A stretch of 52,884 nucleotides of DNA, from contig JAFGQS010000120.1 of the NCBI GenBank assembly GCA_016935565.1, positions 1-52,884 of the forward strand. The letters are read 5' to 3'. Below are positions 4,419-9,682 of this stretch, one piece after another. The notes below the pieces were generated by a model. That model was not told the origin of the DNA and made no database searches. It worked only from the letters and a program-made list of their open reading frames with translations. Source of the DNA: Deltaproteobacteria bacterium (GTDB taxonomy: Bacteria; Desulfobacterota; Syntrophia; Syntrophales; UBA6807). Made by a program: the position numbers and the translations under genes. The first letter of the stretch is position 1; each line of letters starts with the position of its first letter.

Positions 4419-5168
4419 ATGAAAACAGTTCGAATCATCTATTCAGTCATCATAATCTGCTTTATTCTCCCGGGGCACAGTCTCTGTGCCGGACAAATTT
4501 CCAACGGGGAGTGTGTCGTTTTGCTCCACGGCCTGGCGCGAACGAAACATTCGATGAATACAATGGAAAAGCAACTTAAAACGGAAGGCTTTGAGGTTGT
4601 TAACTGGGGCTATCCTTCAAGGCATCACACGATTGAAAAACTTGCAGAGGATGCCATACCGGCGGCTGTTGAGGCCTGCCGTAACAAAGGCGCGACCACG
4701 ATTCATTTCGTCACACATTCTATGGGAAGCATTCTCGTCCGATATTATCTAAAGCACCATGAGATAAAAGGATTAGGCAGAGTAATCATGCTGAGTCCCC
4801 CGAACGGCGGAAGCGAGGTGGTGGATACGTTCAAGGACACGTTCCCCTTTCGATTCATACACGGCCCCGCGGGAAAAGAGCTGGGAACAGATGCTTTCAG
4901 CCTCCCGAGGAGACTTGGTAAGGTCGAGTTCGATTCAGGTGTGATTACCGGTGACAGATCCATCAATCTCATTAATTCGCTTCTCATTCCCGGAACAGAT
5001 GACGGCAAGGTTTCCGTAACGAACGCACAGGTAGAAGGAATGAGTGATTTTCTTGTTGTTCATGTATCCCATCCATTCATTATGAAGAATCGCGAGGTAA
5101 TAACCCAGACAATTTATTTTTTGAAAAACGGAAAGTTTAACAGGAATGAGGGACACCGGAAGGAATGA
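4419..5168 (+). CDS. Secreted lipase-like alpha/beta hydrolase
   Basis: A 249-residue protein with a signal peptide (MKTVRIIYSV followed by a hydrophobic stretch, likely cleaved near residues 22-25). The oxyanion HG is at 37-38, and the nucleophile elbow is THSMG with Ser101; the residue two before the serine is Thr rather than the usual Gly. Acid and base candidates are Asp194 or Asp195 in GTDDG and His218 in SHPFIM. The fold resembles triacylglycerol lipase/EstA-type hydrolases. It follows the LysE gene by 61 bases. The true substrate is unknown. Confidence 0.8.
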   Translation: MKTVRIIYSVIIICFILPGHSLCAGQISNGECVVLLHGLARTKHSMNTMEKQLKTEGFEVVNWGYPSRHHTIEKLAEDAIPAAVEACRNKGATTIHFVTHSMGSILVRYYLKHHEIKGLGRVIMLSPPNGGSEVVDTFKDTFPFRFIHGPAGKELGTDAFSLPRRLGKVEFDSGVITGDRSINLINSLLIPGTDDGKVSVTNAQVEGMSDFLVVHVSHPFIMKNREVITQTIYFLKNGKFNRNEGHRKE

Positions 5169-5339: not shown

Positions 5340-5468
5340 TCAGAGCATACAGACATCGCCGGCGCATACACCACTTCCAAGTGACAATTGAGTAGGTTTA
5401 TGTTTTCTTGTCCTTTTTCTGATATTGGGCTCAACGGGATATTCTTTTCTTGTAATAGTTCTTGTCAT
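5340..5468 (-). CDS. Small basic peptide with C-terminal Cys pair, unknown; possible modified-peptide precursor
   Basis: ATG at 5468 follows GGGAGGAG at 6 bases, one of the strongest ribosome binding sites in the window. The 42-residue product is very basic over its first 25 residues (MTRTITRKEYPVEPN, then several RK pairs). It ends in a small, Gly/Ser/Cys-rich tail, SLGSGVCAGDVCML, with two cysteines spaced CX4C. A charged leader plus a short Cys/Gly/Ser core resembles precursors of ribosomally made modified peptides, but no maturation enzyme is visible next to it. Equally possible are a small regulatory or membrane-associated peptide or a chance frame. Confidence 0.4.
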   Translation of the reverse strand: MTRTITRKEYPVEPNIRKRTRKHKPTQLSLGSGVCAGDVCML

Positions 5469-5554
5469 GATTCACTCCTCCCTTCTTTTCTCATCAGGAT
5501 TACAGCGTTTCTTTATTTTCCTTCATATCGTCACAAGAACTGTACAGCGGAAAA

Positions 5555-5836
5555 GTGATCGACACAATCGGCGGGTGGCTGAATTCAGGGTCGGATGACA
5601 TACATTTTATTTATAAGCCAAGAAGAAGGTTCGACTGGGACAAGAGCTCTTTCATACATGGGGTCCCGGCGTATGAAACCATCGGAATTTGTCCGATGCA
5701 ACACGAATACTGCCAATTACAGAAATGGTGTGAGGAAGCGGCCACGTTCAGATTGAAGCCTGATTTGTTGCTCACGCAAAAGAACGGAGTTGCATCTTTC
5801 CCCGTGCATCGAAAACAAATGCTGTTACTATTATGA
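5555..5836 (+). CDS. Doubtful open frame, unknown
   Basis: A GTG-started frame of 93 codons; the frame stays open back to 5471 but has no ATG or good ribosome site. Some of the product looks protein-like (KVIDTIGGWLNSGSDD, then ICPMQHEYCQLQKWC with three Cys), but I recognise no family and the end reads as non-coding (MLLLL). It could be the remnant of a broken gene. The antisense frame at 5611-5928 is equally open and equally unconvincing. Confidence 0.15.
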   Translation: MIDTIGGWLNSGSDDIHFIYKPRRRFDWDKSSFIHGVPAYETIGICPMQHEYCQLQKWCEEAATFRLKPDLLLTQKNGVASFPVHRKQMLLLL

Positions 5837-5939: not shown

Positions 5940-6965
5940 ATGACACGCAAGATTTTACTCGGAAAAACAGGGCTTGAAAGTACACGACTCGGCTTCGGGG
6001 GCATTCCGATTCAGCGTGTCGATGAACGGCAGGCCGTAGAAACGGTCATTCATGCAATCGAAAAAGGAGTCGACTTTATCGATACGGCCCGCGCCTATAC
6101 CACAAGCGAAACAAGAATCGGCATCGCACTCCGTGAAACAGCAGAGAACAGGCTGGTTCTGGCAACAAAGTCCCAGCAGCGAACGGCCGATGGTATCAGA
6201 AAGGATGTCGAGAAGAGTCTGAAAGAGCTTAAGAGAGAGACCATCGATCTCTACCAGTGCCATTTCGTCAGGGATTTCGACACCTATGGCACAATCATAT
6301 CCACAGGAGGAGCCCTGGAAGGGCTGCTCATGGCCCGTGACGAGGGACTGATCGGACACATCGGGATAACCAGCCACAGCCTTGACGTCCTGAACCATGC
6401 TATCGACGACGGGCTCTTCGAGACAATCATGGTCTGTTACAGCTTCCTTGAACCGTTGGCGGAAGAAACCGTCATCCCCAAAGCACTGGCAAAGAATATG
6501 GGAGTGATTATCATGAAGTCCTTTTCCGGCGGCGTTATCGATAATCCCCGGCTGGCCCTCAAATACGCCCTCGCCATCGATGGGACCGTCGTCATCCCCG
6601 GCGTGGAAAGCAAAGAGTTGTTCGACCGGAACTGGGACGTTTTTCTCAGCGACCTGGCCCTCGATCACGACGAATTCCAGGAGATTGCCGCCATCAGGCA
6701 ACAGTTCGACAAGCACTTCTGCCGGCGTTGCGACTACTGTCAGCCCTGTCCCGAAGGAATTTCGATCCAGGCAATCTTAGGAATCAAATCGATGGTCAAA
6801 CGGATGGGTAAGGCCGTCATTGAGAAGGGGTGGCCCAAAGAGGTCGTCGAAAAAGCCCGGAACTGTAACGGATGCGGCGAGTGCATGGAACGGTGTCCCT
6901 ATGATCTTCCCATACCGGAACTGATCAGGGAAAATGTGGAATGGTTCGATGAACAGTTGCTCTAG
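5940..6965 (+). CDS. Aldo/keto reductase with C-terminal two-cluster ferredoxin domain
   Basis: A 341-residue protein. Residues 1-250 form an aldo/keto reductase barrel with the full catalytic tetrad: Asp48, Tyr53, Lys77 and His108. The tail binds two iron-sulfur clusters: Cys261, 264, 267, 270 and then Cys309, 312, 315, 319 followed by Pro. This AKR-ferredoxin arrangement is common in anaerobes and suggests that it reduces or oxidises a carbonyl using ferredoxin electrons. Start at ATG 5940; GGAAGG is upstream but somewhat far. The substrate is unknown. Confidence 0.88.
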   Translation: MTRKILLGKTGLESTRLGFGGIPIQRVDERQAVETVIHAIEKGVDFIDTARAYTTSETRIGIALRETAENRLVLATKSQQRTADGIRKDVEKSLKELKRETIDLYQCHFVRDFDTYGTIISTGGALEGLLMARDEGLIGHIGITSHSLDVLNHAIDDGLFETIMVCYSFLEPLAEETVIPKALAKNMGVIIMKSFSGGVIDNPRLALKYALAIDGTVVIPGVESKELFDRNWDVFLSDLALDHDEFQEIAAIRQQFDKHFCRRCDYCQPCPEGISIQAILGIKSMVKRMGKAVIEKGWPKEVVEKARNCNGCGECMERCPYDLPIPELIRENVEWFDEQLL

Positions 6966-7654: not shown

Positions 7655-9682
7655 CTATCGGGTGTAAATTCTGTAGTCAACCACGGCGATACCCTGCTCG
7701 TAAACAAGCACCGGATTAAGATCGATCTGGTCGATTTCCGGATGATCCGTTACCAGCCTGGATACGGCCGCCATGAGATCGACGAGAGCTTTCTTATCTT
7801 TCGGATTCTGGCCTCGTACGCCTGCCAGCAGTGGATACCCTTTGATACCCCTCATCATCTGTAAAAATTCTTTTTCCGCTGCCGGTAAGAGGCAGAACTG
7901 CACATCCTTGTAGATTTCCGTAAAGATCCCTCCCAGGCCAAACATGAGGGACGGACCGTACTGGGGATCGGTGGTCACTCCTAAGATTACCTCCAGACCA
8001 CCCGAATCGGCCATGAGTGACACGGTCACGCCGTCTATTGCGGCCCCGGGAGCCTGAGCCGTGACGGCCGACACGATTTTTTCATAGGCGCTGCGCACTT
8101 CATCGTCTGTAGTGAGGTTGAGCTGTACACCACCAACATCGGTCTTATGGGATACATCAGCGGAGGCTATTTTGAGAACGACGGGCATTCCGAGATCATT
8201 TGCCAGCGCAACGGCCTCATCCGACGACGCTGCCAACGGGGCATCAAATGCCGGAATACCGTAATCCTTCAGCATAGCGACAGCATCGGACGCCGACATC
8301 AGTTGTAGGGCGGCAGCCTCTGCTGTGTGCGGTTCCTCCTTGATGTCCGCATCAGGCTCGTCGAAACGGAAGAACTGGTACAGGGCTCTTATGCCGCGCT
8401 CCGGCGTGGGAAAAGCCGGAATGCCCTTTTGGTGCATGAGGGCCGTTTCTTCACGTTCAACATCGGCACCACCACAGAAAATGACCAGTTCCGATTCTCC
8501 CTGAGTGACCATATCGGATGCCCCATGAATCGGATCACCGAAAAGGACCACCATTGCATCGAATTCGGATCGGGCTTCCTGAATCACCCGGGCGTACAGA
8601 CTCGGGTCGGTTATGGCATCGCCGGTGAGATCAACGGGATTGCTGACACCGCAGTGGTCGGACAGGAAAGCCCTCAAACGTCGCTGCAGTGATTCGCTCG
8701 GAATCGGTACCTGAAATCCAAGTTTCTCCGCCTCGTCGATCGCCAGAATGGCAATGCCGCCGGAACTGGAGATCGTCAGCAAGCGCCTTCCGGGAGGTTT
8801 TTTCATATAGGCGAGAGCCTTGGCAAAATCGTAGAGTTCTTCCAGGTTTTCCGCCCGATATACTTTGTACTTTTTAAATATGGCCTCGTATATTGCGTCA
8901 CTACCCGCCATTGATTTGGTATGGCTCTCAGCCGCTTTCCGGCCCCAGGCTGTCCGTCCCGCTTTCAAAATCACCACCGGTTTTGTGGCCGTGGACAGGG
9001 CCTTGAGGAAAACATCGGGTCTCTTGACACCCTCCATGTACAGGGCGATGACTTTTGTGTTCGGATCGTCATTGAAATATTGGATACAGTCTGACTCGTC
9101 CACATCGGCCCGATTGCCCAGGCTGACGAAAACACTCACTCCCAGATGGTCCTCACTGGCCCAATCCATAAGAGCCGCCCCGACAGTGCCGCTCTGTGCA
9201 ATAAATGCCATTCCCCCTTCGTTGGTGAGCAACGGCCAGGAAGCACAAAGATTATGGTGTGGACTATTTACCCCCTGACAGTTGGGACCGATGACCCTGA
9301 TTCCATACTGTTCCGCGATACGGGCCAGCTCTTCCTGCAGTTTTTCTCCGTCTTCTCCCGCTTCGGCAAAGCCCCCCGTGACGACAATTGCAGCTTTTAC
9401 CCCCGCTTCGCCGCATTGCTGGATAGCCCCCGGAACCATTCGGGCGGGAATTAATACAACAGCCAGATCCGCCGGAGTCGGCGTTGAACCGATATCTTTA
9501 TACACCTTCAGCCCCAGAAGCTCGTCGGCCTTGGGATTGATCGGATAGATCGGCCCCTCAAACCCGGCATGAATCAGGTTGTACAAGACATCATAGCCAA
9601 GTTTTCCCGGTGTACCTGAGGCTCCAATTAATGCTACGCTCTTCGGGTTAAAGATGGCGTCCAAATTACTTAGCGACTTCAT
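7655..9682 (-). CDS. ADP-forming acetate/acyl-CoA ligase, fused alpha-beta
   Basis: A 675-residue single-chain NDP-forming acyl-CoA synthetase. The alpha half has a CoA-binding domain starting near FNPKSVALIGASG (11-23), VIGPNCQG (130-137) and the phospho-histidine motif SHTKS with His254. The beta half is an ATP-grasp domain with SHKTDVGG, giving His512, and FGLGGIFTE. Start at ATG 9682 behind GGAGG. It is a paralogue of the split enzyme at 351-2520; both are expected to make ATP from acyl-CoA thioesters, perhaps with different substrates. Confidence 0.93.
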   Translation of the reverse strand: MKSLSNLDAIFNPKSVALIGASGTPGKLGYDVLYNLIHAGFEGPIYPINPKADELLGLKVYKDIGSTPTPADLAVVLIPARMVPGAIQQCGEAGVKAAIVVTGGFAEAGEDGEKLQEELARIAEQYGIRVIGPNCQGVNSPHHNLCASWPLLTNEGGMAFIAQSGTVGAALMDWASEDHLGVSVFVSLGNRADVDESDCIQYFNDDPNTKVIALYMEGVKRPDVFLKALSTATKPVVILKAGRTAWGRKAAESHTKSMAGSDAIYEAIFKKYKVYRAENLEELYDFAKALAYMKKPPGRRLLTISSSGGIAILAIDEAEKLGFQVPIPSESLQRRLRAFLSDHCGVSNPVDLTGDAITDPSLYARVIQEARSEFDAMVVLFGDPIHGASDMVTQGESELVIFCGGADVEREETALMHQKGIPAFPTPERGIRALYQFFRFDEPDADIKEEPHTAEAAALQLMSASDAVAMLKDYGIPAFDAPLAASSDEAVALANDLGMPVVLKIASADVSHKTDVGGVQLNLTTDDEVRSAYEKIVSAVTAQAPGAAIDGVTVSLMADSGGLEVILGVTTDPQYGPSLMFGLGGIFTEIYKDVQFCLLPAAEKEFLQMMRGIKGYPLLAGVRGQNPKDKKALVDLMAAVSRLVTDHPEIDQIDLNPVLVYEQGIAVVDYRIYTR

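Follow-up and report, generated by a model that had tools for sequence, protein, structure and literature searches.

The question raised by this locus is whether a 42-codon open reading frame, lying in a window of 52,884 nucleotides (the window being the whole stretch of DNA that was analysed), is a gene and, if so, what its product might do. A sequence-only reading of the window had described the frame as preceded by a ribosome site six bases before its ATG and as encoding a basic peptide with a CX4C tail, and had named three possible explanations: a precursor of a ribosomally made, modified natural product (RiPP), a stand-alone small regulatory peptide, and a chance frame. No curated family in Pfam, NCBIfam or PADLOC matches the peptide or its orthologues.

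The 42-codon frame and its orthologues

The frame runs on the minus strand, which the sequence-only reading had not given, from the ATG at 5468–5466 to the stop codon at 5342–5340, and encodes MTRTITRKEYPVEPNIRKRTRKHKPTQLSLGSGVCAGDVCML (Table 1). The described layout is otherwise confirmed: six bases, TGAATC, separate the Shine–Dalgarno sequence GGGAGGAG (5482–5475) from the ATG, the peptide carries nine K/R against three D/E (pI 10.2), and the tail CAGDVCML has the spacing C-X4-C. By eye, no hydrophobic segment is evident. The length of the frame is no evidence for a gene, since 97 frames of at least 40 amino acids overlap the first 12 kb of the window. AlphaFold2 produced no confident fold for the peptide (mean pLDDT 54, pTM 0.14), and its comparison with the PDB gave only matches with E values of 4.1 and 7.8; plasmids and phages yielded a single match each (E 7 and 6), and viral contigs none. 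Rfam placed no family near the gene, its matches being four tRNAs at the far right end of the window, and the promoter/terminator scan of the gene region reported no intrinsic terminator.

Table 1. Positions of the gene, its upstream elements and neighbours in the window, and of related promoters at other loci
Feature	Position	Strand	Basis
Alpha/beta-hydrolase-like gene, convergent with the peptide gene	4419–5168	+	Matches below Pfam cut-offs
42-aa small protein gene (type B), C-terminus CAGDVCML	5340–5468	−	Orthologues; conserved start, Shine–Dalgarno and stop; dN < dS
Shine–Dalgarno sequence GGGAGGAG	5475–5482	−	Read from sequence; GGAGG eight bases from ATG in 3/3 orthologues
Conserved non-coding promoter block (model R1)	5525–5701	−	Sequence model of blocks
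−10-like hexamer TACAGT, 17 bases from −35	5539–5544	−	Aligned blocks; missed by generic scanner
−35-like hexamer TTGTGT, overlapping the proximal site	5562–5567	−	Aligned blocks
Proximal operator-like site TCAGCCACCCGCCGATTG	5565–5582	−	Exact TCRGMCN5CCGATKG match
Distal operator-like site TCGGACAAATTCCGATGG, core an inverted repeat	5679–5696	−	Exact match, 114 bp upstream of proximal site
Aldo/keto reductase with ferredoxin tail, divergent from the peptide gene	5940–6965	+	Pfam
Double-site promoters before a conserved 118–128-aa Cys-rich protein	L129:1960–2480; L143; L149; L154		
Double-site promoter, sites 115 bp apart, before a 243-aa GNAT acetyltransferase	G003:C26 (L124) 6587–6604, 6702–6719	−	

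A search of 60 genomes (the window's own and 59 relatives) with the protein as query found two orthologues, at G005:C213:6567–6692 on the plus strand (E 2.3e-8) and at G003:C150:2240–2362 on the minus strand (E 3.3e-8). The carriers of this peptide, here called type B, are two of the five other genomes of the window's GTDB family, both in one other genus. All three genes have in common the ATG, a GGAGG eight bases upstream of it and the position of the stop codon. In the alignment of the three sequences 19 of the 42 columns are invariant, 13 of them belonging to the stretch TRKH.PT and to the last eight residues (CAG.VCML), and the tail reads CAG[DE]VCML throughout; the start and both tail cysteines, for which the sequence-only reading had suggested a check in relatives, are kept in both orthologues. 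Between G003 and G005 dN is 0.058 and dS 0.61. Between the window and G005/G003, pS is 0.70/0.68, which is near saturation, and pN is 0.31/0.33 (about 0.32).

Conservation and coding constraint, on which the sequence-only reading had staked its candidate, are therefore both present in the orthologues and in the excess of dS over dN. On account of the conserved start, Shine–Dalgarno sequence and stop and of the purifying selection seen in the orthologues, the comparison of sequences makes it almost certain that the 42-codon frame is a genuine protein-coding gene under purifying selection. The many frames of similar size in the window could speak for a chance open frame, but with orthologues, conserved start, stop and ribosome site, and a dN much lower than dS, that option is hardly credible and we reject it.

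As far as searched, the type B gene is lineage-restricted. A profile built from the three sequences detected no further convincing member in 6 family, 155 order and 395 phylum genomes (the class-level search covered the same 155 genomes as that of the order, with the same matches), and a pattern-based scan, run on 84,980 species genomes, gave the two relatives already found and one chance match. Several candidates were discarded: this chance match, in Clostridiales (L023, E 3e-5), lies antisense within a 922-aa frame; three matches in the order (L024–L026, E 0.004–0.007) each overlap a longer open frame and, by eye, are without the peptide tail; and the remaining weak matches of the protein query, with E values from 0.009 upwards, scored too low to be kept.

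The promoter block upstream of the gene

In G005 and G003 the type B gene is flanked by a histidine kinase/response regulator pair and by a molybdopterin oxidoreductase (domains of the G005 neighbour proteins were assigned by scanning against families). The coding neighbours thus differ between the window and these two genomes, whereas the upstream non-coding block is conserved, with 62–64% identity to G005 and G003 over window positions 5455–5702. CoA-ligase-like gene sets flank the wider region in the window, at 351–2520 and at 7655–9682 (minus strand), with an ATP-grasp_5 domain in 351–1094 and ATP-grasp_5, Succ_CoA_lig and CoA-binding domains in 7655–9682.

A fourth block is found on contig 25 of the window's own genome (G000:C25). 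The block contains a distal inverted repeat, followed by TTGTnn-N17-TACAGT (TAGATT in G000:C25); the distance from this repeat to TTGTnn is 131 bp in the window, in G005 and in G003, and 132 bp in G000:C25. Read together, the four blocks reveal that the distal repeat and the sequence across the −35 hexamer are two copies of one 18-bp pattern, TCRGMC-N5-CCGATKG. Exact matches to this pattern occur only twice in the 52,884 bases of the window, 114 bp apart, compared with about 0.01 expected (an estimate for uniform bases); with up to two mismatches, the whole window contains 12 matches against 7.5 expected, a count reached in 5 of 100 shuffles and not clearly an enrichment. The −35 and −10 hexamers are far from consensus. 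A generic sigma-70 scan did not report the double-site promoter and gave a different weak match within the frame, at 5468–5441. The four aligned blocks indicate that a shared promoter type with two copies of the site very probably lies upstream of the window peptide.

Coding readings of the same region were set aside. The frame of an apparently conserved opposite-strand protein (IDTIGGWLN) is broken in G005, the conserved letters being those of the promoter block. A 93-aa frame with a GTG start (5555–5836, plus strand) overlaps the block and is probably not a gene, since its G005 counterpart contains stops.

Spread of the double-site promoter and a linked two-component system

A sequence model (R1) made from the four blocks was searched over 155 genomes of the order. 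Strong matches number five, of which one is new, that in G003:C26 (E 4.7e-7; sites 115 bp apart). The remaining matches have E values of 0.003–1 and many are probably noise; eleven of the promoters with the shorter spacings given below came from matches in this range. Site pairs with −35 and −10 hexamers in the collected loci (423,357 bases) represent 17 distinct promoters (19 rows, with two duplicate loci), and the reversed sequence of the same loci contains none. When the promoter was not required, 16 distinct pairs with up to three mismatches were found in 817,174 bases and none in the reversed sequence. TTGn3-N16-18-TAn3T follows 15 of these 16 pairs, and the sixteenth (G033:C24) carries TAGATT where it would be expected, with TGG for TTG. 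An earlier scan of all loci then collected, with up to three mismatches and the promoter required, also gave zero in the reversed control, and unselected sequence amounting to 400 kb, with 200 kb from each of G072 and G008, contained no promoter-bearing pair. The pair scans left out overlapping or short-DNA-match loci (L001–L013, L016–L023, L052–L090 and L094–L096), and the scan without the promoter requirement also L110 and L121; L102 and L109 pass only at four mismatches.

The union of the scans amounts to 18 double-site promoters, distributed over 13 genomes from six families, counts that are not an unbiased census because most loci were collected by likeness to the promoter model. The two sites are 114–115 bp apart in five promoters, 68–70 bp in twelve and 46 bp in one. 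The model was trained only on the 114–115-bp spacing, so the 68–70-bp class was not imposed by it. Each spacing class lies close to a multiple of 23 bp (twofold for 46, threefold for 68–70 and fivefold for 114–115).

At 12 of the 18 promoters the first gene encodes an unannotated peptide of 35–57 amino acids with a net charge of +2 to +7 (the window, G005:C213, G003:C150, G000:C25, G001:C39, G037:C271, G152:C102, G033:C7, G154:C6, the second promoter of G064:C38, G027:C6 and G033:C24). At four (the first of G064:C38, G065, G093 and G048) it is a Cys-rich protein, which in G093 (L149) is zinc-finger-like with scores below the Pfam cut-offs. The G003:C26 promoter precedes an acetyltransferase gene, so the set is not one of peptides only, and the promoter at G005:C161 has no clear target gene. 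By eye, the Cys-rich gene at L129 precedes genes resembling 3-hydroxyacyl-CoA dehydrogenase and CoA transferases.

The peptides differ among loci. In G005 and G003 the block is followed first by a peptide of 45 amino acids, type A, ending in YYS[RK]KIVQFH, and then by type B; G003 encodes a third peptide, of 39 amino acids, ending in FWCDPSNYPFF. In G000:C25 the block is followed by a type A peptide ending in VSRPYYSRKVVQFH and then by a 34-aa peptide ending in LLKNRVP. Type A is itself constrained (dN 0.10 and dS 0.50 between G003 and G005), and an SRK.V-type tail closes the type A-like peptides in all but the last of six aligned rows. A further tail, W..P...P, is invariant in six peptides, two of which (G037 and G027) have the full W.DPMC.P, which we take to recall the DPVCGM motif of YHS domains; short basic peptides with the W..P...P tail are found at L102, L109, L129 and L150 and as ORF-C of G003. 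The sibling peptides that were scanned have no match in Pfam or NCBIfam or only matches below cut-off. The L128 peptide, with GGAGG two bases from its ATG, was missed by the ORF filter and read by eye. Also by eye, further short basic frames (MKKEAKKKKVKAVGKPDKIEVIWSEG and MKLKTNKKTEETSADFYDWWDALEFEMKIRDEKSTPVNKSK) can be read from the opposite strand downstream of the minus-strand promoter at L127 (G033:C7).

The kinase at G000:C25 consists of four PAS stretches, HisKA_3 and HATPase_c, and the regulator is of the Response_reg-GerE (LuxR) type. Since this pair (regulator 80% identical) is on contig 25 and not on the contig of the window, the window is linked to it by promoter similarity only. 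Orthologues of the pair are present at 5 of the 17 promoter loci tested (G005:C213, G003:C150, G000:C25, G001:C39 and the second promoter of G064:C38), with regulators 76–100% identical to the C25 protein. The test comprised 17 loci with promoters or with the pair, 16 of which hold 17 promoters (L156 was left out), and several had only about 1.5 kb of flank, where absence of the pair says little. G000:C25 and G001:C39 had been collected via the regulator and the other three via the peptide or the promoter, so that either starting point led to the link. Genes sharing the window's promoter site are in this way linked to one response regulator, by linkage only.

A different transcription factor might control the promoter, the neighbourhood of the kinase and regulator being coincidental or merely ancestral. 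In favour of this, the pair is seen at only 5 of 17 loci in the available flanks, and one copy (G003:C21, L092) has neither promoter nor peptides beside it. Against this, the linkage recurs in four lineages (G000; G003/G005; G001; and G064, of another family). In addition, the regulator (74% identity or more) agrees with the promoter in its occurrence in six of six family genomes: G000, G001, G003 and G005 carry both, and the searches gave neither in G002 and G004 (no regulator match at E 1e-30). The absence of the promoter from these last two is soft, the search over the order having used stricter filters. We consider a different factor somewhat unlikely and, from this pattern of linkage, conclude that the histidine kinase/response regulator pair probably controls the double-site promoter.

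Interpretation and comparison with known systems

The RiPP explanation would have a basic leader followed by a core, GVCAGDVCML, whose cysteines would be modified by an enzyme from another locus. The peptide is indeed short, with a basic N-terminal half and a conserved, Cys-containing C-terminus, and SPASM-domain proteins are present in its own genome. SPASM matches, however, are found in each of the six family genomes, three of which lack the peptide, so that the radical SAM enzyme for which a search elsewhere in the genome had been suggested does not single out the carriers. PqqD was found in G001 and G005 only and is absent from G000 and G003 (E 0.01); neither partner tracks type B across the family. 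Two SPASM loci on contig 113 resemble, by eye, what we take to be housekeeping haem-synthesis enzymes, one being beside an ALAD-like gene. Around the three orthologues, none of the listed ORFs was recognised as a maturase (ten window ORFs were scanned with Pfam and the rest judged by eye; the contigs are short in G003, 7 kb, and in G005, 11 kb), in agreement with the sequence-only reading, which had seen none beside the frame. The sibling peptides have no obvious common leader, and 7 of the 12 first peptides under this promoter type contain no Cys. In RiPP precursors the leader is usually better conserved than the core; the conserved half of the window peptide is its C-terminus. The RiPP-like interpretation gains no support from these comparisons; we regard it as quite unlikely, and as less likely than a small regulatory protein of a two-component regulon.

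A ribosome-arrest or attenuation leader peptide, acting on a downstream gene, could account for conserved residues directly before the stop codon and for the molybdopterin oxidoreductase that lies downstream on the same strand in G005 and G003. The downstream genes differ among the orthologue loci, however, and in the window the next one is the convergent hydrolase-like gene (Table 1), so that there is no co-directional gene to attenuate, which makes this alternative very unlikely.

The shared promoter, the paired sites and the linkage to the kinase and regulator lead us to favour, as reasonably likely, a small regulatory protein belonging to an undescribed two-component regulon. In the terms of the sequence-only reading it is the stand-alone small peptide that fits best, because the gene has its own promoter block, common to other small-peptide genes; the chance frame falls away and the RiPP goes unsupported. 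The phosphorylated regulator would bind both 18-bp sites, activating transcription by RNA polymerase from the site that overlaps the −35 hexamer, while the distal site would recruit a second regulator dimer; the peptide would then be made from its strong Shine–Dalgarno sequence. The least firm steps concern the peptide itself, which may be a cytosolic adaptor or inhibitor whose C-terminus, GxCAG[DE]VCML, docks on a partner protein, and whose two cysteines could serve in metal binding or redox control. The docking function is a tentative and rather doubtful proposal.

It is possible that the regulon extends over the whole order, with short basic proteins that change from genome to genome as its main output and with a regulator acting on paired sites at discrete spacings; we judge the case for this wider reading to be evenly balanced. 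Its protein set would include the tails CAG[DE]VCML, W.DPMC.P, SRKxVxFH and L[LI].N.VP. The discrete spacings (46, 68–70 and 114–115 bp) would then point to a regulator that assembles on DNA in an ordered way, and to a layer of control made up of peptides. Topical searches of the open-licence literature brought up no published report of such a regulon, and the strings CAGDVCML and DPMCGP retrieved no paper there. The unannotated 42-codon frame becomes a testable entry point to a regulator, a duplicate 18-bp site and small-protein genes that have no Pfam or NCBIfam model. If the regulator controls these genes, a set of small basic proteins is one of the main outputs of a two-component system in these little-studied bacteria, and the spacings, if they hold, would offer a clean system for the action of a LuxR-type regulator at two sites.

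Among known systems, the mycofactocin precursor MftA and PqqA-type precursors are short peptides with a conserved C-terminus, as is the window peptide. Unlike them, the latter has no maturase or PqqD recognised beside it, PqqD being absent from G000 and G003, and no NCBIfam match. MgrB of the PhoQ/PhoP regulon is a protein of 47 amino acids that is produced under a two-component system (PMC8404706), and the window peptide is likewise a short protein putatively under such a system. MgrB is a membrane protein, and the window peptide, basic and with no evident hydrophobic segment by eye, is set apart from it by this description.

GacA-regulated promoters have an inverted-repeat site far upstream, and so does the window promoter. 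The GacA box is TGTAAG-N6-CTTACA, from which the site described here, TCRGMC-N5-CCGATKG, differs. The best match of the G005 regulator is the NCBIfam model for UvrY/SirA/GacA, below its cut-off. A close parallel in design is GacS/GacA of Pseudomonas with its small-RNA promoters rsmY and rsmZ (PMC2375449): like the proposed regulon with its Response_reg-GerE regulator, it combines a LuxR-type response regulator with small-gene outputs. In contrast to GacS/GacA, the promoters considered here carry two copies of the site, one of them on the −35 hexamer, and their outputs are predicted to be translated small proteins.
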